A program made the position numbers and the translations under genes. The notes below the pieces were generated by a model that did no database searches, was not told where the DNA came from, and worked only from the letters and a program-made list of their open reading frames with translations. A stretch of DNA of 64,000 nucleotides from Brachyspira hyodysenteriae ATCC 27164 (GTDB lineage: Bacteria > Spirochaetota > Brachyspiria > Brachyspirales > Brachyspiraceae), in contig NZ_CP015910.2 in NCBI RefSeq assembly GCF_001676785.2, positions 1,612,001 through 1,676,000 of the forward strand. Direction: 5' to 3'. Positions 391 to 23,158 of the stretch are shown here, one piece after another. Position 1 is the first letter of the stretch. Every line of letters starts with the position of its first letter.

Positions 391-514
391 AAAGATACTC
401 TCAATAAATTAATTTATTAAACTTTATAATATTTCCTATATTGGATAAAAATATCATAAAAAAAATTATTAAATTTTGAATGCGGTTATTATTAATCATA
501 TATTTCTTCTTTAA

Positions 515-6953: not shown

Positions 6954-9953
6954 TTAATATGAATCAAATATAAATTCAACCTCTTTAACAATATCTTTAT
7001 CCTCTAGATCTGTTACAAATTTTTTCCAATTATTAGTGTCAAATATATTATCTTTAACATGATAAAATTTTCTAAAAGAAAACATATTTGAATATTGTAA
7101 CCCTCCTGCCATTCTTTAGAAAATATAATATAAGCTCCATTAGTTTTGTAATCATTAGTTATGATTTTATTATTGAATGGATTTCTAATATTATGTATAT
7201 GTTTTGTTACTAAATACGGCACATCAGCAACTGTTGAAAAATTAGTATCTATAATTAATTCACCCCTAGAATTAAAATCTTTATATATTAATAAAGCATT
7301 AAATAAATTAATAGTTAATTTATAATCATCATTAATGTCATAATTATTAAGTCCATAGAGAGGAAATCCATGATCAGAAACAACTATTATTTTTGTATTA
7401 TCATATAAATTATTATCTTTTAAATAATTTATAAAATCAACTATAACATTCATAGAAGCAATATTAACATAATAATGTCTAACAGAATTATCATCTTTAT
7501 ATAAAAATATATCATCATCATTAACTTTAGAAGCTGATATTCCAGGCAAATAATTTACATTAAAATAAGATGGAAAATGAGTTGCCATATTATGTAATAT
7601 ATTATAATAATTTACATCATCATGAATTTTTACTAATTTTTTGGTATATGATAAAAGTGTATAATAATAAATACTAGAATTAATAAAACTATTTACATTA
7701 AAATTGAACCATTTTTTATCATCATAAAATACGTATCTTAAATTAATTGGAAGCATTCTAAATATTGAAAATCTTATGGATACTTTTTTTAAATATAATT
7801 TGCTGTTTTTCTTCTCTATTTTTATATGATTCAATATTCTTTTCAACATGATAATCATTATAGGATGATATATTACTATAATTTTGAAATATACTTAAAT
7901 CTGGTATATCCGAAAAATTAGCATATGCAGGATCCAATATTGAAGATTTATATCCATAATTTCCCAATACTAATGGTATCATTAATAAAGATTCATTATG
8001 CTTTTCTTTTATTATATAATTACCATTTGTACTCATTTCATATGGTAAATAATCATATCCACAATATATAGAACCTATTCCTAAAGTTGTACTACAAAAA
8101 GAAACATTATTTTTATAAAATACAAAACCATCAAATTTAGTTTTAAATTCGGGGTATTTATTAATTGCATCATACCAATAAGATGAAACTGCTCTATCTA
8201 ATATAAAGACAAAAATATTTTCACCATTCTTAGACAAATTAAACATTTTATTATCATCTATATTATTATTAACATTTATTTTTTCTAATTGTAGCTGTTC
8301 TGTTATTATTCCTCTAATATTAAATACAGACACAGAAAATAAAGCTAATAATATAATAAAATAAATATTAATAAAAAACATAAGTCTTTTTTTCACAATA
8401 GATAATGTAAATAATAAAATTACAGATAATATTAATATTATATTAAATATTATTTGATTAGTAGATGCTTTTAATAATTCAGTATTATCAAATATAAAAT
8501 CCGCATCAATATTTACATAATTACCTGTCATAATAAATGTATTAATTAATACTATCCCAGAAATAAAAATTATAATTAAAGTTAAATAAGATTTAATTTT
8601 ATCTGAAAATAATAAATATATAAATAAAGGGTAAAATAAAAATAATCCTATACTTATTGATAACGTATTTATAATTAAATAATATGGCTGCATAAATTCT
8701 TTAGGGGAATCATATATTAACGATGTAATTATAAATAATCCTGATAATATAGTGATAACTAAACATGAAACAATAATTAATTTATTTCTATATTTTATAA
8801 AAGAATATTCTATATCCTCAGTTTTTAAAATAAATTTATAAATAATTTTAATGTTAATTATAAAAAAAAGTAATAATAATATAATATAAATATTAATTGA
8901 ATAAGATTTAATACTTAAACTATAAATTATCTCTATATTTTCATCAATATTCTCTATATTTTTATTTAATTCAACAATTGCAAATTTTGTATTAGCCCCT
9001 GTAATTTCTATATTATCTATATATTTTGAAAGCTTGTTAGTATTTATTTTTAAATCAAATATATCACTACTTCTAAATATATTACTATAATACATTACTT
9101 TGGCAATATATTTAGTATTAATAGAATCTTCAGAATTAGGTTTAAATTCAGATAAATATCCCTTTCTCTCTATCTTAGATAAAACAATAAGTAATACAAA
9201 CAATACTGTAACAATAATAAAAAATATATTATAAGCCTTTAATAATTTATATCTATTTCTTACAAATATTTCATATAATTTAAACTCTATTATTATATTT
9301 TTTATAAAAGAAAATAAACAATTTATAGTCCAATAAAACAAAAGTCCTGATGGAGAATTATAAAGAAGCAATAAAAATATTAATGATACTACATATAAAG
9401 GTAAACTCTCTTTGAACTTTAATTTTCTAGAATAAACAAAACCAGCTAATAAACTAAATAAAGTCATTAAAAATGGAAGCAGATTAATACTTATATTACC
9501 AATATGAATTAAGGCATCTGGCTTAGATAAATCTTTGATAAATAAAAAACTCTGACCGCTTAATCCTGATAAACTATGTACAAAATTATATGCCGCCATA
9601 AAAAATGGTATCTGTATCAAAAGTCCTAAAGTACCACGAAAAGCATATATTGTTTTGTATCCATTGATTCTTTGACAAGTACGTATTAATAAATAACGTT
9701 GATCTCCTTTATATACAGCCTTTATATTATCTATCATTGGCTTCATCTTATCCTGAATGGCTCTTTCCTTAGCCTGCCAAGATTCTGCTATATTATATAA
9801 TGGAAGCGATAAAAAATTTATACATAAACTGAGTAAAAATAAACTTACTCCATAACTTGATTTAAATTCTACACTGAATAAATAAAATAATATTTCTATA
9901 ATAAATTCTATTGGATATATTATAATATTATAAATAATATCAAAAAAGATCAT
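6954..9953 (-). pseudogene. YidC-like / alkaline-phosphatase fusion, copy B, with two frameshifts
   Basis: Residues 1-220 form a YidC/Oxa1-like domain (LGLLIQIPFFMAAYNFVHS, FLFIKDLSKPDALI, SPSGLLFYWTIN). Further membrane segments follow, then an alkaline-phosphatase/sulfatase-superfamily domain (ENIFVFILDRA, later IIVVSDHG). Frame one (from 9953) stops at 7758. The phosphatase domain continues in another frame to 7013, and the tail homologous to the intact copy (FYHVKDNIFD) lies in a third frame ending at TAA 6954-6956. Removing one A from the A7 run (7784-7790, T in the plus strand) and adding one G to GGG near 7103 would restore about 1000 codons, matching the 997 of copy A. It may be a decayed paralogue, a slippage-controlled gene or sequence error. 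The N-terminal 850 bp are nearly identical to copy A. Confidence 0.8.
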
Positions 9954-10054
9954 AATACCCCCAAGATATTAACTTTTCTGAGTTTATGATTTTTTTGATA
10001 AACAAATGATATGTTTTTTCTATGTAATAAAAAATATATATAAAATTTAAGGAC
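9205..10054 (-). repeat. Duplicated block, copy B (YidC half plus leader, near-identical to 12645-13494)
   Basis: With a constant offset of 3440 bases this block aligns without gaps to 12645-13494, with only scattered substitutions. It covers the YidC-like domain, the start codon and the end of the leader ORF up to the tandem repeat. Below 9205 the two genes diverge sharply. Confidence 0.85.
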
Positions 10055-10281
10055 TGTTGATTGTTGATTGTTGATTGTTGATTGTTGATTGTTGATTGTT
10101 GATTGTTGATTGTTGATTGTTGATTGTTGATTGTTGATTGTTGATTGTTGATTGTTGATTGTTGATTGTTGATTGTTGATTGTTGATTGTTGATTGTTGA
10201 TTGTTGATTGTTGATTGTTGATTGTTGATTGTTGATTGTTGATTGTTGATTGTTGATTGTTGATTGTTGATTGTTGATCAT
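9940..10281 (-). CDS. Repeat-bearing leader ORF upstream of copy B (113 aa)
   Basis: From ATG at 10281 (GGA about 9 nt upstream) the frame runs through a 32-unit heptanucleotide repeat, giving repeated INNQQST heptapeptides. It then encodes a unique tail ending GYYDLF and stops 14 nt inside the copy B gene. The promoter at 10308-10336 places transcription start near 10300, so codons upstream of 10281 are unlikely to be used. No known domain is present. The peptide itself may be irrelevant: the frame in which ribosomes leave the repeat decides whether they reach the ATG at 9953, which has only a weak G-rich site of its own. Translation is unproven. Confidence 0.4.
   Translation of the reverse strand: MINNQQSTINNQQSTINNQQSTINNQQSTINNQQSTINNQQSTINNQQSTINNQQSTINNQQSTINNQQSTINNQQSLNFIYIFYYIEKTYHLFIKKIINSEKLISWGYYDLF
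10055..10278 (-). repeat. Heptanucleotide tandem repeat, 32 perfect copies
   Basis: The plus-strand unit TGTTGAT is repeated 32 times without interruption (224 bp). The unit is not a multiple of three and contains no stop codon in any frame on the minus strand, whereas the plus strand has TGA once per 21 nt. Uninterrupted arrays of this kind change length by polymerase slippage. Confidence 0.95.
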
Positions 10282-10307
10282 AAGTTTTCCATATATCAAT
10301 TTTTTAT

Positions 10308-10336
10308 ATTCTAATATTAATTTAGAAATATTGCAA
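10308..10336 (-). promoter_or_regulatory. Promoter of copy B leader and gene
   Basis: On the minus strand TTGCAA (10331-10336), 17 nt, then TAGAAT (10308-10313). The region is homologous to the promoter of copy A at 13758-13786, but here the repeat starts only about 30 nt downstream. Confidence 0.45.
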
Positions 10337-10399
10337 TTATAAAAAAACATTAAATATTTTTAACAAAAAGAATTATATATTTTTGTATATATTATAATA

Positions 10400-13393
10400 T
10401 TATTCCCACATACGCTCATCAAATTCTAATGGTATTTCCTTCATACTTTTGTCTTTTTGCATCTCAAATTTAGACCAGTTATTTATATCGAATATATTAT
10501 CTTTTACTCTATAAAATTTCATATTATTTCCTTTCCAAGGCAAAGCCATCATATAAATACCATTATTTTTATAATTGTTAGTTATTAACTCATTATTGAA
10601 ATAATCTTTTATATTTGGAATATGATTAACGGTTAAATATGCAATGTCACCAGATGTCATAAAACTATTATTTATTTCTATCTCACCTCTTGAATTGAAA
10701 TCTTTAACCATTAATAAAGAATTATACCAATTTACAAAAAGATTTGTTGAAGAAGAAGTATTAACAAACCACCCATGATCAGAGGCCACTATAATTTTTG
10801 TATTATCATAAACATTATTGTTTTTCAAAAAATCTAATAATTCAATTATTAGATTTAATGCAGCTCCGTTACAATAAAAATGTCTAACACTAAAATCATT
10901 TTTGTAATTTTTCAAATCATCTGAATTTACATCAGTAGTACGGAAATTAGGTAGAAAATTAGAATTATATGCTCCTGTTTCATGTGTAATCATATTATGC
11001 AATAAATTATAATATCTTTCTTTTTCATCTGTAACATTAATATTTTTTTTCAAATATGACATAATAGCATAAGTATAAATACTAGAATTAATTCTATTAT
11101 TATTCATAAACCAGTTTTTATCACTATAAAATGAATGTCTTAGATTAATTGGAAGCATCCTAAATATAGAAAATCTTATAGTCAAATACTTGCTTGTATT
11201 ATCATTTTTAGAATTTACGTTGCCAATATAATCTTTTATTGCATTATCTTCAAATGAAGAATTAGCATAAGCACTTACATTTTGATAATTACTAAATATA
11301 GTAGTATTTACCATATCATAATTACCGTTAATAAAAAGAGGTTCCAAAATACTTGTTTTATATCCATATTTCTCTAATGCCAAAGGTATTGTAAGAATAG
11401 CTTCATTATTTACATCTACTCCATTACTTGTTATACCTTTTGGTGATGTAAAACCATCAAATAAGTCTTTTTTCTTTAGATTATATGCTGAATAATTATA
11501 TCCGCCATATATAGATGACATACTAGAACTTGTATTTAAACCTAAAGATACAGTATTAGGATAAATAACAAATCCGTCTAATTTTGCTTTATATTCAGGA
11601 AATCTTTCTAAAAGATCTAACCAATGTGATGGTATTGCTCTGTCTAAAATCAAAACAAATATATTTTCACCATTTTTTGATAAATTAAATATCTTAGAAG
11701 TATCTATATTATCATTATTATAAGCACTTATTTTCTTTAATTCATTTTGACCTATAATTATATTCTTTATATCAAATATAGAAACTGAAACTAAAGCAAT
11801 TATTATTATAATATATATATTCATTATAAATATAAATTTTCTTTTAATCATTAAAAATAAAAATATAGAAATGATTAATAATATTAAAAATAAATTTAAT
11901 ATTATTTGATTTGAAGATGCTTTTAATAGATCAGTATTATCAAATATAAAATCCGCATTGATATTAATATAATTACCCACCATAATAAATGTATTAATTA
12001 ATACAATTGAAGCTAAACAAACAAATATTATAGTCATTATATTTTTTATCTTATCTGAAAATAATATATATATAAATAATGGATAAAATAAAAATAATCC
12101 TAAACTCATTGATAAATCATTAAAAATCAAATTAAACGGAGATCTAAATTCTTGCGGAGAATTACCTATCAGAGAACTAGGAATAAAAAGTCCAGACAAT
12201 AAAGATATAACCAAACATGATAATAAAATTAAATATTTCCTATTTTTTATAAAAGACTTTTCTACTAAAAAAACATTTAAATTAAATATATTATTAATTC
12301 TTTTTAAATTAAAAAATATTAAAAGAATTAATAATAATACATAGTATGAAATAAAAGTTTGTTTGATAAATAATTTATAATAAAGATTTATAGTACCTAT
12401 ATTTTCTATACTATCTTTTAACTTAACTGTACCATATCGGCTTCCTCTGTATTCAAATGTTATATCAATAACATTGCTGTCAAGTTTATTATTATTTACT
12501 AAAACTCCATATATATCACTATTTCTAAAAACTTTACTGTAATAACCTAAACTAATATTATATGTATAACCATCTATAAGCTTAAAATCTGTTAAATAAC
12601 ATTTTCTTTCTATATTACCTAAAGAAATTAATGATATTAATAATACTGTAATAATGATAAAAAATATATTATAAGCCTTTAATAATTTATATCTATTTCT
12701 TACAAATATTTCATATAATTTAAACTCTATTATTATATTTTTTATAAAAGAAAATAAACAATTTATAGTCCAATAAAACAAAAGTCCTGACGGAGAATTA
12801 TAAAGAAGCAATAAAAATATTAATGATACTACATATAAAGGTAAACTCTCTTTGAACTTTAATTTTCTAGAATAAACAAAACCAGCTAATAAACTAAATA
12901 AAGTCATTAAAAATGGAAGCAGATTAATACTTATATTACCAATATGAATTAAGGCATCCGGCTTAGATAAATCTTTGATAAATAAAAAACTCTGTCCGCT
13001 TAATCCAGTTAAACTATGTACAAAATTATATGCCGCCATAAAAAATGGTATCTGTATCAAAAGTCCCAAAGTACCTCGAAAAGCATATATTGTTTTGTAT
13101 CCATTGATTCTTTGACAAGTGCGTATTAATAAATAACGTTGATCTCCTTTATATACAGCCTTAATATTATCTATCATTGGCTTCATCTTATCTTGAATGG
13201 CTCTTTCCTTAGCCTGCCAAGATTCTGCTATATTATATAATGGAAGTGATAAAAAATTTATACATAAACTGAGTAAAAATAAACTTACTCCATAACTTGA
13301 TTTAAATTCTACACTGAATAAATAAAATAATATTTCTATAATAAATTCTATTGGATATATTATAATATTATAAAATATATCAAAAAAGATCAT
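10400..13393 (-). CDS. YidC-like / alkaline-phosphatase-superfamily fusion protein, copy A (intact)
   Basis: This 997-residue membrane protein has three parts. Residues 1 to about 220 are a YidC/Oxa1-type domain: LPLYNIAESWQ, a charged cytoplasmic hairpin, LIQIPFFMAAYNFVHS, FLFIKDLSKPDALIH and PSGLLFYWTIN. About five more membrane segments fill residues 235-560. Residues 590-960 form an alkaline-phosphatase/sulfatase-superfamily domain opening with NIFVLILDRAIPSHW and closing with the metal-binding DNTKIIVASDHG, presumably in the periplasm. Such domains act as sulfatases or as phosphoglycerol/phosphoethanolamine transferases; the context of CDP-alcohol genes favours a transferase, which is inference. 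The YidC part is shorter than housekeeping YidC and may be a membrane chaperone or scaffold. The start has a weak GGGGGT site and overlaps the leader ORF by 14 nt. Confidence 0.8.
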   Translation of the reverse strand: MIFFDIFYNIIIYPIEFIIEILFYLFSVEFKSSYGVSLFLLSLCINFLSLPLYNIAESWQAKERAIQDKMKPMIDNIKAVYKGDQRYLLIRTCQRINGYKTIYAFRGTLGLLIQIPFFMAAYNFVHSLTGLSGQSFLFIKDLSKPDALIHIGNISINLLPFLMTLFSLLAGFVYSRKLKFKESLPLYVVSLIFLLLLYNSPSGLLFYWTINCLFSFIKNIIIEFKLYEIFVRNRYKLLKAYNIFFIIITVLLISLISLGNIERKCYLTDFKLIDGYTYNISLGYYSKVFRNSDIYGVLVNNNKLDSNVIDITFEYRGSRYGTVKLKDSIENIGTINLYYKLFIKQTFISYYVLLLILLIFFNLKRINNIFNLNVFLVEKSFIKNRKYLILLSCLVISLLSGLFIPSSLIGNSPQEFRSPFNLIFNDLSMSLGLFLFYPLFIYILFSDKIKNIMTIIFVCLASIVLINTFIMVGNYININADFIFDNTDLLKASSNQIILNLFLILLIISIFLFLMIKRKFIFIMNIYIIIIIALVSVSIFDIKNIIIGQNELKKISAYNNDNIDTSKIFNLSKNGENIFVLILDRAIPSHWLDLLERFPEYKAKLDGFVIYPNTVSLGLNTSSSMSSIYGGYNYSAYNLKKKDLFDGFTSPKGITSNGVDVNNEAILTIPLALEKYGYKTSILEPLFINGNYDMVNTTIFSNYQNVSAYANSSFEDNAIKDYIGNVNSKNDNTSKYLTIRFSIFRMLPINLRHSFYSDKNWFMNNNRINSSIYTYAIMSYLKKNINVTDEKERYYNLLHNMITHETGAYNSNFLPNFRTTDVNSDDLKNYKNDFSVRHFYCNGAALNLIIELLDFLKNNNVYDNTKIIVASDHGWFVNTSSSTNLFVNWYNSLLMVKDFNSRGEIEINNSFMTSGDIAYLTVNHIPNIKDYFNNELITNNYKNNGIYMMALPWKGNNMKFYRVKDNIFDINNWSKFEMQKDKSMKEIPLEFDERMWE

Positions 13394-13494
13394 AATACCC
13401 CCAAGATATTAACTTTTCTGAGTTTATGATTTTTTTGATAAACAAATGATATGTTTTTTCTATGTAATAAAATATATATATAAAATTTAAGGAC
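12645..13494 (-). repeat. Duplicated block, copy A (near-identical to 9205-10054)
   Basis: This is the partner of the block at 9205-10054, offset 3440 bases. The high identity stops abruptly just after the YidC-like domain, consistent with recent duplication or ongoing gene conversion of the 5' part only. Confidence 0.85.
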
Positions 13495-13577
13495 TGTTGA
13501 CTGTTGACTGTTGACTGTTGACTGTTGACTGTTGACTGTTGACTGTTGACTGTTGACTGTTGACTGTTGACTGTCAT
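13380..13577 (-). CDS. Repeat-bearing leader ORF upstream of copy A (65 aa)
   Basis: The ATG at 13575-13577 is preceded by AAGGAG at good spacing, the best ribosome-binding site near this gene. The frame runs through 11 heptanucleotide units (peptide unit TVNSQQS) into a tail ending SWGYYDLF and stops 14 nt inside the copy A gene. The tail is almost identical to that of the copy B leader. In the second frame translation would end at TAA directly after the repeat; in the third at a TGA overlapping the downstream ATG as ATGA. This supports a coupling role. No domain is recognisable and expression is unproven. Confidence 0.5.
   Translation of the reverse strand: MTVNSQQSTVNSQQSTVNSQQSTVNSQQSLNFIYIFYYIEKTYHLFIKKIINSEKLISWGYYDLF
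13495..13571 (-). repeat. Heptanucleotide tandem repeat, 11 perfect copies
   Basis: The plus-strand unit TGTTGAC occurs 11 times (77 bp), differing by one base from the TGTTGAT unit upstream of copy B. It is stop-free in all three minus-strand frames. Confidence 0.95.
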
Positions 13578-13757
13578 TTTATCTCCTTATTTTTTGACTT
13601 ATTAATACTAATATGAATTCATAATTTTTGCAATTTGCTTAAATATAAAAATATTATTTCCTCATATATTAATTAAACTACAATTATATTAATAATTGAT
13701 ATTATAGTTTTTACAAAAAAAGATTTAAATAATAATTATTACTATTTAATTCGATTT

Positions 13758-19187: not shown

Positions 19188-19257
19188 TATATAGAAGTGT
19201 ACAGCAATTAAATGCTGAAATAAAATTATTTAATTAAAACTTAAATAATTAATCTAT

Positions 19258-19297
19258 AAAGGAGTTAGGCGGTTTTAAACCGTTAATTAATTAGAAT
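19258..19297 (+). promoter_or_regulatory. Distant Shine-Dalgarno with intervening hairpin before clpB
   Basis: AAAGGAG (19258-19264) is 33 nt from the clpB ATG, far beyond normal spacing. Between them CGGTT-TTA-AACCG forms a 5-bp hairpin (19270-19282) that could bring the site closer. An in-frame TAG at 19292-19294 rules out an earlier start. An upstream CAGCA/TGCTG hairpin (19202-19217) lies near the predicted 5' end. Confidence 0.4.
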
Positions 19298-21877
19298 ATG
19301 GATTATAATAAATATACAATAAAAGCCCAAGAGGCAGTAAATGAAGCTGCTAATATAGCTAATGGCGAAGACCATAATGAAATAAAAAGCGAACATTTAC
19401 TTTTAGCATTATTAAAACAAGAGGACGGACTTATTCAGCCATTAGTAGAAAGAATAGGTGTTCCTATAAACACATTGATAGATAAAACTCAAAGATTAGT
19501 TGATGAAAATGTAAAAGTTACAGGCGAAAATGTACAGTTACATCTATCTACTAATGCCGGTAAAGTTTTAGCAAAAGCAGAAAAAGAAGCTAATGCTTTG
19601 AAAGATCAATATGTATCTACAGAGCATATATTCTTAGCACTTGTTGAAGCTGACAATAAAGCAGGAGATATGCTTAGAAAAAGCGGAATAAGTAAAAAAG
19701 AAGTTTTAAGTGCATTAAAAGATTTAAGAAAAGGACAAAGCGTTAATAGCCAAGACCCAGAAGCTAAAATGCAGGCACTTGATAAATATTGCCGTGATTT
19801 GACAGCATTAGCAGAAGCAGAAAAAATTGACCCTGTTATAGGACGTGATGAAGAGATAAGACGTGTTATGCAGGTATTATCAAGAAGAACAAAAAATAAT
19901 CCAGTGCTTATAGGTGAGCCTGGTGTTGGTAAAACTGCTATTGTTGAAGGACTTGCTAGAAGAATAGTTTCTCAAGATGTACCTGAAGGACTTAAAGATA
20001 AAAGATTATTAGCTTTGGATTTAGGTGCTTTGGTTGCAGGCGCTAAATTTAGAGGAGAGTTTGAAGAGAGATTAAAAGCTGTTATTACAGAGATAGAAAA
20101 ATCTGAAGGCAACATAATATTATTTATAGATGAGCTTCATACTCTTGTAGGAGCTGGTGCTACTGAAGGTGCAATGGACGCTTCTAACCTATTAAAACCT
20201 GCATTGGCAAGAGGTGAATTAAGAGCAATAGGTGCTACTACTTTAGATGAATACAGAAAATATATTGAAAAAGATAAAGCACTTGAGAGAAGATTCCAAC
20301 AAGTTTATTGTAAAGAACCTAGTGTTGAAGATACTATTTCAATACTTAGAGGTTTAAAAGATAAATACGAAGTTCATCATGGTGTTAGAATAAAAGATGA
20401 TGCATTAGTTGCTGCTGCTGTTTTATCTAACAGATACATAACTAATAGATTTTTACCAGACAAAGCTATTGACTTGGTAGATGAAGCTGCAAGCCAATTA
20501 AAAATAGAGATAGACAGTCAGCCTACTGAACTTGATAAAATTGAAAGAAAACTTTTACAGCTTAATATAGAAAAACAAGCTCTTTCAAAAGAAAATGATG
20601 CAGCTTCTAAAGAAAGGTTAGAAAAGTTAGAAAAAGAATTATCTGAACTTTCTGAAGAACGTAATGCTATGAAACTTCAATGGGATAACGAAAAAGGAAG
20701 AATTGAAGAGACAAGAAAAATAAAAGAAGAACTTGAGGCTTTAAATATAAAAGAAACTCAATATACAAGAGAAGGAAATTTAGCAAAAGCTGCTGAAATA
20801 AAATATGGTAAAATACCGGAATTACAGAAAAAATTAGAATCAGCAGCTAAGGCTATGGAAGAAGCTAAAAACTCTGATAAGAAAAGACTTTTAAGAGAAG
20901 AGATTTCTGAAGATGATATAGCTAGAGTAATATCTGTATGGACTGGAATACCTGTAAGCAAAATGCTTGCAAGTGAAAAACAAAAATACTTACAGCTTGA
21001 AGAAGTATTACATAAGAGAGTTGTAGGACAAGATGAGGCTATAACTTCAGTTGCTGATGCTATTAGAAGAAACAGAGCAGGACTTTCAGATGAAAATAAA
21101 CCTCTTGGAAGTTTCTTGTTCATAGGACCTACAGGAGTTGGTAAAACAGAGCTTGCTAAAACACTTGCTGATTTCTTATTTAGTGATGAGCATGCTTTAA
21201 CAAGAATCGATATGAGTGAGTATATGGAGAAATTCTCTGTTACTAGACTTATAGGAGCTCCTCCAGGATATGTAGGTTATGATGAAGGAGGACAATTAAC
21301 AGAAGCAGTTAGAAGAAGACCTTATTCTGTTATACTATTTGATGAGATAGAAAAAGCTCACCCTGATGTATTTAATGTTTTACTTCAGGTATTAGATGAT
21401 GGAAGACTTACTGACGGACAAGGAAGAATAGTAGATTTCAAAAATGCTATTATCATAATGACAAGCAATTTAGGTTCTGATCTTATTCTTGAAGCTAACG
21501 ATACTAATGATATCAAAGAAAAGATTCAGGAATTACTAAAAATGTCATTTAGACCAGAGTTCTTAAACAGAATAGATGAGATAATAACATTTACTAGACT
21601 TGACAAAAAATACATTGCTGAGATAGTAAGAAATCAAATAGCAAGAGTTGCCAACAGACTTAAAGACAGAAGAATAACTTTAGATGTAAGCGATGAAGCT
21701 ATAGACTATATTGCTGATATTGGTTATGATCCTCAGTTTGGAGCAAGACCATTGAAAAGAGCTATACAAAACTTTATAGAAAATCCTTTAGCTAAAGAAA
21801 TGCTAGCAGGTAAATATTTAGAAGGAGATACTATAAAGGTAAAAAAATCTGGAGATAGTTTAGTATTTGAAAAATAA
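19298..21877 (+). CDS. clpB: ATP-dependent disaggregase ClpB
   Basis: This 859-residue Hsp100 protein has an N-terminal Clp repeat domain, a first AAA+ module with [15 protein letters not shown] and [15 protein letters not shown], a coiled-coil middle domain of about residues 400-530 rich in Glu/Lys, and a second AAA+ module with [17 protein letters not shown] and [16 protein letters not shown]. The length and middle domain distinguish ClpB from ClpA/ClpC. With DnaK it extracts and refolds aggregated protein after heat stress. It is monocistronic with a bidirectional terminator at 21895-21922. The upstream region (sigma-54-like promoter, distant ribosome-binding site with hairpin) is unusual. 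Confidence 0.97.
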
Positions 21878-21894
21878 ATAATTTAATAATAAAT

Positions 21895-21922
21895 AAGGCT
21901 ATATAATTTTTTATATAGCCTT
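21895..21922. terminator. Bidirectional terminator between clpB and the glycosyltransferase-like gene
   Basis: An 11-bp stem, AAGGCTATATA (21895-21905) with TATATAGCCTT (21912-21922), and a T-rich loop. It sits between convergent genes and abuts the stop codon of the minus-strand gene. Confidence 0.75.
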
Positions 21923-22965
21923 TAATCATTTTTATATTTTAAAATATAATTTAATGATTCTTTTATTTCTTCTATTTTTATATCTTTATAATTAAAATAG
22001 TCTTTTATATTTAGTTTAATCATATTATCAATTTTTAATTTTAAATAATTATCTATAATTTTAATACCTGTTATAGAAATATCATTATATAATTCATTTC
22101 CAAGATATTTATTTAATGAGTTAATATAATAAATACTCATAGAATTTCTAAAATTATCTCTGAGTTTTCTTATGGAAATAAACCAGCCTAATTTTTTAAT
22201 CATTTTTTTAAATTCGTCCAAATAAATAATATCATATATATTTTTTTTATCTCTTAAAGGAATTATAGGATAAATTTTATTTTTAGATTCAAATTCATTT
22301 TCAGAAATTGTATAAAAGTTATATATTTTAGAAAGTATAGAAAAAATACTTTGATCATGTCTATTTTCAATAAATATATCTGCATTTTTAATTTTGGAAG
22401 GACTATCATCAGCTAAAGAAAAATCATCATAATAAACTTGAAGCCATTTTTTTAAAAATTCTATATTCATACTATTTTTTAAAAATAAAAAATAAGTTGT
22501 AAAAATTTGAGGGGTATCTGTAATATTTTGATTATTTAATACATTTAAATAATTAAATAAATCTGATTTTGTCCACTTTTTTTCAGGTGAATTTAAACCT
22601 AATTTAAAACATAATCTACTATTATCTATAACCAAATCCAAATATTCATAAAATCTATCAATACCTTCTTTATTGAAATGACAGCCTATATCAGCATAAA
22701 CTAATATATCATTATCATTCATAGATTCCAACGTTTTAAGAACAATAAATGGTTTCCAACACCAATATCCAAATCCTCTGCTATATACTAATTTAGAACG
22801 GAATGCTTTTTCAAATTTTTCATTGTAAGGTAAATTATATTCATTATAAATAAAAATTTCATCGAATATATTAAAACTCTCTGCTTGTTTTTTAAATCTA
22901 ATTGCGGATAAATATAAATCTAAATTATGGAATGCACATAAATATACTTTTCTATCTTTATACAT
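21922..22965 (-). CDS. Putative glycosyltransferase-like surface-glycan protein
   Basis: This soluble protein of about 347 residues has the pattern RGFGYWCWKPFIVLKTLE followed by DNDILVYADIGC, the nucleotide-sugar-binding-like D-x-G region seen in proteins of bacterial capsule and LPS clusters that resemble GT-A glycosyltransferases. No signal peptide or membrane segment is seen. I favour ATG 22965 (GGGA 6 nt upstream); an in-frame ATG at 22983 lacks a site, and a stop at 22993-22995 limits extension. The gene follows a transcribed 16-unit pentanucleotide repeat within a leader ORF whose stop codon falls 3 nt past the ATG at 22965. The enzyme class is a pattern judgement, and donor and acceptor are unknown. 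Confidence 0.6.
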   Translation of the reverse strand: MYKDRKVYLCAFHNLDLYLSAIRFKKQAESFNIFDEIFIYNEYNLPYNEKFEKAFRSKLVYSRGFGYWCWKPFIVLKTLESMNDNDILVYADIGCHFNKEGIDRFYEYLDLVIDNSRLCFKLGLNSPEKKWTKSDLFNYLNVLNNQNITDTPQIFTTYFLFLKNSMNIEFLKKWLQVYYDDFSLADDSPSKIKNADIFIENRHDQSIFSILSKIYNFYTISENEFESKNKIYPIIPLRDKKNIYDIIYLDEFKKMIKKLGWFISIRKLRDNFRNSMSIYYINSLNKYLGNELYNDISITGIKIIDNYLKLKIDNMIKLNIKDYFNYKDIKIEEIKESLNYILKYKND

Positions 22966-23158
22966 TATACATCCCATAAACATAATAAAAAATTAATTTT
23001 TTTATTATAATAAAATATTTAAAGATATTAAAAAGTTTAATTACTTGACTTGACTTGACTTGACTTGACTTGACTTGACTTGACTTGACTTGACTTGACT
23101 TGACTTGACTTGACTTGACTTGAAGTATATTAGCTAATGCATAAATATTCAACATCAT
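22958..23158 (-). CDS. Repeat-bearing leader ORF upstream of the glycosyltransferase-like gene (66 aa)
   Basis: The frame from ATG 23158 runs through the pentanucleotide repeat (peptide unit VKSSQ) and a hydrophobic tail ending YGMYNV, stopping at 22958-22960, just after the downstream ATG (22963-22965). The predicted transcription start is at or next to 23158, so initiation would be leaderless or further in. In the other two frames TAA occurs immediately after the repeat. No domain is recognisable and translation is unproven. Confidence 0.35.
   Translation of the reverse strand: MMLNIYALANILQVKSSQVKSSQVKSSQVKSSQVKSSQVIKLFNIFKYFIIIKKLIFYYVYGMYNV
23044..23123 (-). repeat. Pentanucleotide tandem repeat, 16 perfect copies
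   Basis: The plus-strand unit CTTGA is repeated 16 times (80 bp; TCAAG on the coding strand). It is stop-free in all minus-strand frames, while the plus strand has TGA every 15 nt. It lies in the predicted 5' leader, about 80 nt before the downstream start. Confidence 0.95.

Follow-up and report, generated by a model that had tools for sequence, protein, structure and literature searches.

Simple-sequence-repeat contingency loci, for example lic1A, lic2A and lgtC of Haemophilus influenzae, carry perfect arrays of non-triplet units inside the switched gene, and copy number modulo 3 gives on/off. In the H. influenzae lex2 locus (lex2A with GCAA repeats, lex2B) unit number is likewise scored as on/off (PMC6479036), and heptamer arrays about 100 bp upstream of the surface genes hmw1A/hmw2A are reported to lie in the promoter (PMC2651432). 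Separately, translational coupling to a short upstream ORF is known (e.g., iraD; PMC5574718), as are RBS-masking hairpins opened by upstream translation (MS2, rpmI-rplT; PMC12548453). Here we describe a locus in the gut spirochaete Brachyspira hyodysenteriae ATCC 27164 where these two principles appear to be combined. A 7-bp repeat lies inside a small leader ORF, and its length appears to decide whether ribosomes reach the start of the next gene.

The window analysed is a 64,000-nucleotide stretch (GCF_001676785.2, contig NZ_CP015910.2, positions 1,612,001 to 1,676,000 of the forward strand). A preliminary description proposed that unit number modulo 3 sets the frame in which leader ribosomes leave the repeat, and so whether the downstream gene is translated; it described that gene's own ribosome-binding site as weak. 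The anatomy was confirmed at base level, and the idea passes every sequence test that we could run. However, the RBS is better described as masked than as weak. Features are collected in Table 1.

Table 1. Coordinates of the leader, array, hairpin and target features within the window
Feature	Coordinates	Strand	Remarks
Candidate promoter of leader A	13605..13633	-	TTGCAA, 17 nt, TAGTAT; 8/12 to consensus, consensus match only
Candidate promoter, copy B counterpart	10336-10308	-	TTGCAA-17-TAGAAT
Leader A Shine-Dalgarno	13583..13588	-	AAGGAG; duplex -7.8 kcal/mol, among the best of the window
Leader ORF A	13380..13577	-	65 codons; ATG 13577-13575; TGA ends 14 nt inside the target
Heptamer array A	13492..13574	-	11.86 perfect copies of ACAGTCA
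TAA ending the off exit frame	13487..13489	-	stop end -93; further target-frame stops at -69, -33, -18
Hairpin enclosing target SD and AUG, copy A	13378..13440	-	-16.9 kcal/mol, z -4.68; 5' arm in the leader tail
Target Shine-Dalgarno-like GGGGG	13398..13402	-	4 nt before the ATG, inside the hairpin
Target gene, copy A	10400..13393	-	997 aa; YidC-like N-terminal domain plus a sulfatase-like C-terminal region (below Pfam's cut-off)
Leader ORF B	9940..10281	-	from ATG 10281; same tail, ends 14 nt inside copy B
Heptamer array B	10055..10278	-	32 x ATCAACA
RBS-masking hairpin, copy B	9938..10000	-	-16.9 kcal/mol, z -4.70
Target gene, copy B	7758..9953	-	broken by frameshifts
Leader ORF of copy C	401..499	-	array-less, 32 codons; stop 10 nt before the copy C ATG at 390
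Pentamer leader ORF	22958..23158	-	ends 26 nt inside ORF 21922-22983, which has no SD
Pentamer array	23043-23123	-	AAGTC x 16.2

The leader, its exit frames and the hairpin

The heptamer of copy A has no stop in any forward frame, and no ATG, GTG or TTG either. Of the three exit frames, one ends at +14 relative to the target ATG, one at +4 in an ATGA overlap, and the third, which is the target's own frame, at the TAA listed in Table 1. Under dinucleotide shuffles of the window tails, the chance that both of the other frames are open is about 0.001; these tails are related, hence the per-locus values must not be multiplied. Copy B carries a one-base variant unit and is also in the +14 phase. 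Its gene is broken, the frame being lost at an A7 run near 7786, while the end near 7060 looks shifted too (6960-9953, minus strand). The first 134 aa are 99% identical to copy A, which suggests recent duplication or gene conversion including the leader, and this probably explains why a broken gene keeps both leader and hairpin.

We fetched the 5' regions of 40 further members of this YidC-phosphatase family. Together with copies A and B, 17 carry an array of a 5- or 7-bp unit, and there are six different units in this one family. In 17/17 the target's own frame has 1-6 stops between array and ATG, so no phase can fuse the array to the target. The frame that ends at +8 to +14 (frame +2) is open in 15/17, and the frame that ends at the ATG itself (frame +1) in 13/17. 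Three orthologues that lost or lack the array keep an SD-started leader in an on-type frame, ending at +11, +11 and +1; the leader thus outlives the repeat.

By sequence the target's own RBS is not weak. Counting a G-U pair, its GGGGG gives the joint-strongest calculated anti-SD duplex of 45 window genes (-9.8 kcal/mol; the 16S end carries CACCTCCTTT). However, both the SD (GGGGG/GGGAG) and the AUG lie inside a stable hairpin, missed in the preliminary description, whose 3' arm is the start of the gene. Copies A and B have the most extreme values of the 45 window genes, and the copy A stem is kept in the full-leader fold. In relatives z is -3.4 to -6.0, while in two leaderless paralogues it is about 0. 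On an alignment of 19 relatives 93% of cells pair, slid registers pair at 42-62%, and the pairs UCAUAA/UUAUGA, UCACAA/UUGUGA and UUACAA/UUGUAA replace one another, with 13 cells changed on both sides and 0 of 500 shuffles as high. The number of pairs with double changes (3) is not itself above shuffles (109/500), so the covariation is moderate. In two divergent members a different hairpin again covers the AUG. Of note, the clpB-like gene start at 19298 (19250-19316, plus strand) has the third most stable start-region hairpin of the window (z -3.2) and no SD, perhaps reflecting a heat-shock operator or RNA thermometer.

The target joins a YidC-like domain (PF02096, E 2.8e-21) to the sulfatase-like region. 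A PDB sequence search of the C-terminal part returned only weak sulfatase hits (E 0.07-0.3), and an AlphaFold2 model of the 997-aa protein was discarded (mean pLDDT 46.7). A role in surface modification is a guess.

Recurrence across Brachyspira and predicted phases

The layout is not isolated. The heptamer TCAACAR occurs in 17 of 26 Brachyspira genomes, GCAAACM arrays in 8 and AAGTC arrays in 6. A mechanical survey of all fetched arrays gave 54 leader-type loci in 21 target groups, with nine units of 4, 5 or 7 bp; where the 5' side is present, most follow a leader ATG. Targets include glycosyltransferase-like proteins, an MFS transporter, an outer-membrane-like protein, WWIPFK-type proteins and others, although these names are our reading of N-termini, mostly without family searches. 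Array calls on the wrong strand (units ACTGTTG, ATTGTTG, CTTGTTG) were left out of the counts, while one locus with a mis-assigned target was kept in the 54 as a miss. An exit frame ending within -15..+30 of the target ATG was found in 47 of 54 loci, against 12.5 expected from shuffled tails; by target group it is 18 of 21 against 5.0 expected (nominal P about 2.5e-13). Some groups are related, so this should be read as strong, not exact. Ends cluster at +4 (15), +1 (8), +11 (11) and +14 (6), and 29 loci have one live exit frame, 21 have two and 4 have none. None of the nine units contains a start or stop triplet on the coding strand (about 0.33-0.46 per unit by chance).

Within the window, the ORF behind the pentamer leader is unrelated; it has 353 aa and no Pfam family, and its orthologues in two other genomes have 8.8 and 7.8 units. 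A 400-kb sample of the same genome held only two arrays, at least one of them again in a leader: ACAA x 12.5 ahead of an 883-aa gene, with exits +4/+11/-72. Two leader-type arrays (ACAA x 12.5 and ACAAGCA x 7.9; positions 13393-13442 and 10299-10353, minus strand, of a fetched locus that we label L184) lie about 1.3 Mb away in this genome, ahead of large membrane proteins related to the middle part of the target.

Of 40 loci with an ATG reading into the array, 19 are in an on-type and 21 in an off-type phase, one locus with a masked stretch being uncertain. In Brachyspira alvinipulli two paralogues with near-identical leader flanks have 10.43 and 9.43 units and fall in opposite phases, one off (-87) and one on (+4). 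Orthologous glycosyltransferase leaders with the same tail have 7 and 31 units. This is variation between genomes and paralogues, with one genome per species, and switching within a strain is inferred. It should also be considered that draft contigs of several Brachyspira assemblies (G005:C8, G031:C6, G009:C15/C16, G005:C77 and G031:C38, our genome and contig labels) end inside these arrays, so short-read assemblies hide unit numbers and split leader from target.

A proposed frame-gated coupling switch and its alternatives

We are reasonably confident, from sequence alone and without expression or ribosome data, that these loci are best explained as a phase-variable, frame-gated translational coupling switch. 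A short transcript would start just upstream of the leader, whose ribosomes would cross a hypermutable array so that unit number modulo 3 alone sets the exit frame. In one or two exit frames the ribosome would carry on through the hairpin and stop at or just inside the target start (ATGA/TGATG, or 11-14 nt in), so the target is translated. In the third frame it would stop about 60-100 nt upstream, the hairpin stays closed and the target is off; the target protein is never altered. Individual steps are established elsewhere: premature stops abolish downstream translation at overlaps (PMC6728339), and upstream translation opens RBS-masking structure, with coupling reported strongest at -4 and falling with longer overlap (PMC12548453). 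From the latter we predict that the two live frames of the YidC-phosphatase family differ in output. Masking is not general, as MFS, outer-membrane protein and several other targets show no strong hairpin at the RBS, and for these reinitiation or polarity are alternatives. A simple accessibility model that blocked the 5' arm alone did not free the RBS and was uninformative; the switch would require full transit by the ribosome.

Among alternatives, an off state acting through polarity is the least improbable, though we consider it unlikely. Early termination would leave the leader tail untranslated, and Rho would stop transcription or the mRNA would decay. Polarity by Rho on untranslated RNA is established (PMC12548453), and this would also fit targets with an open SD, where the coupled exit ends 9-22 nt before the target. 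In the YidC-phosphatase family, however, the untranslated stretch is only about 60-100 nt and A/T-rich, and polarity predicts neither the conserved hairpin nor the clustering of ends. Action of array length on promoter spacing or strength, as described for hmw1A/hmw2A, is very doubtful: candidate promoters, judged only by consensus, lie upstream of leader ATG and array in the 14 loci examined, and such a mechanism does not explain the blocked target frame, open exit frames, start- and stop-free units or masked RBS.

It is similarly improbable that leader and hairpin form a constitutive coupling device with the array as neutral, slippage-prone DNA. Array-less orthologues do keep a leader, but nine different non-triplet units occupy leaders of many target groups while arrays are rare elsewhere (two in a 400-kb sample of this genome), and about half of all loci stand in an off frame. 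Ordinary in-gene phase variation with a mis-called start is refuted for this family by sequence. Across the survey 54/54 leader loci are blocked in the target frame, which is partly built into the class, but only one array fell in the coding class. In-gene arrays do occur in the genus: a heptamer lies in the N-terminus of a long ORF that looks like a restriction-modification gene (locus L029, 1499-1539), and possibly in a glycosyltransferase at a contig end (locus L144, array at 1-124); these would be ordinary in-gene switches. An amino-acid-sensing attenuator was rejected, since the repeat peptide differs between units (STVNSQQ, TANSKQQ, SSQVK) and no terminator-like site was found.

Comparison with described systems

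Searches for phase-variable genes usually look for repeats inside genes or promoters; a repeat in an unannotated leader would be missed, and the target gene looks intact. In the literature that we could search, no precedent for leader-ORF phase variation and no described repeat-based phase variation in Brachyspira was found. If our reading is right, the genus has dozens of such switches over probable surface genes, which bears on strain typing, vaccine antigen choice and reading virulence from genomes. A bolder possibility, which we regard as about as likely as not, is a genus-wide system in which stochastic switching is built into disposable leader ORFs ahead of many unrelated genes. In the YidC-phosphatase family, two live exit frames with different overlaps would then give three heritable levels (off, low, high) of an unchanged membrane protein. 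The three natural phases also offer a clean test of RNA-unfolding against reinitiation models of coupling.

Like the contingency loci lic1A, lic2A and lgtC, the Brachyspira loci have perfect arrays of non-triplet units, and their targets are probable surface genes. Here, however, the array is in a separate leader ORF, and the target protein and its N-terminus never change. The lex2 locus is a possible precedent, as its repeat probably lies in a small ORF ahead of the glycosyltransferase gene, although the papers that we read treat lex2A as the switched gene. The hmw1A/hmw2A arrays share the 7-bp unit and a position about 100 bp upstream of a surface gene, but are reported to lie in the promoter, whereas here the array is downstream of the candidate promoter and inside a leader ORF. 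As with iraD, MS2 and rpmI-rplT, translation of the upstream ORF would unmask or feed the downstream start, with ATGA/TGATG overlaps; there the coupling is fixed or regulated by a protein, while here it would be gated by a hypermutable array.
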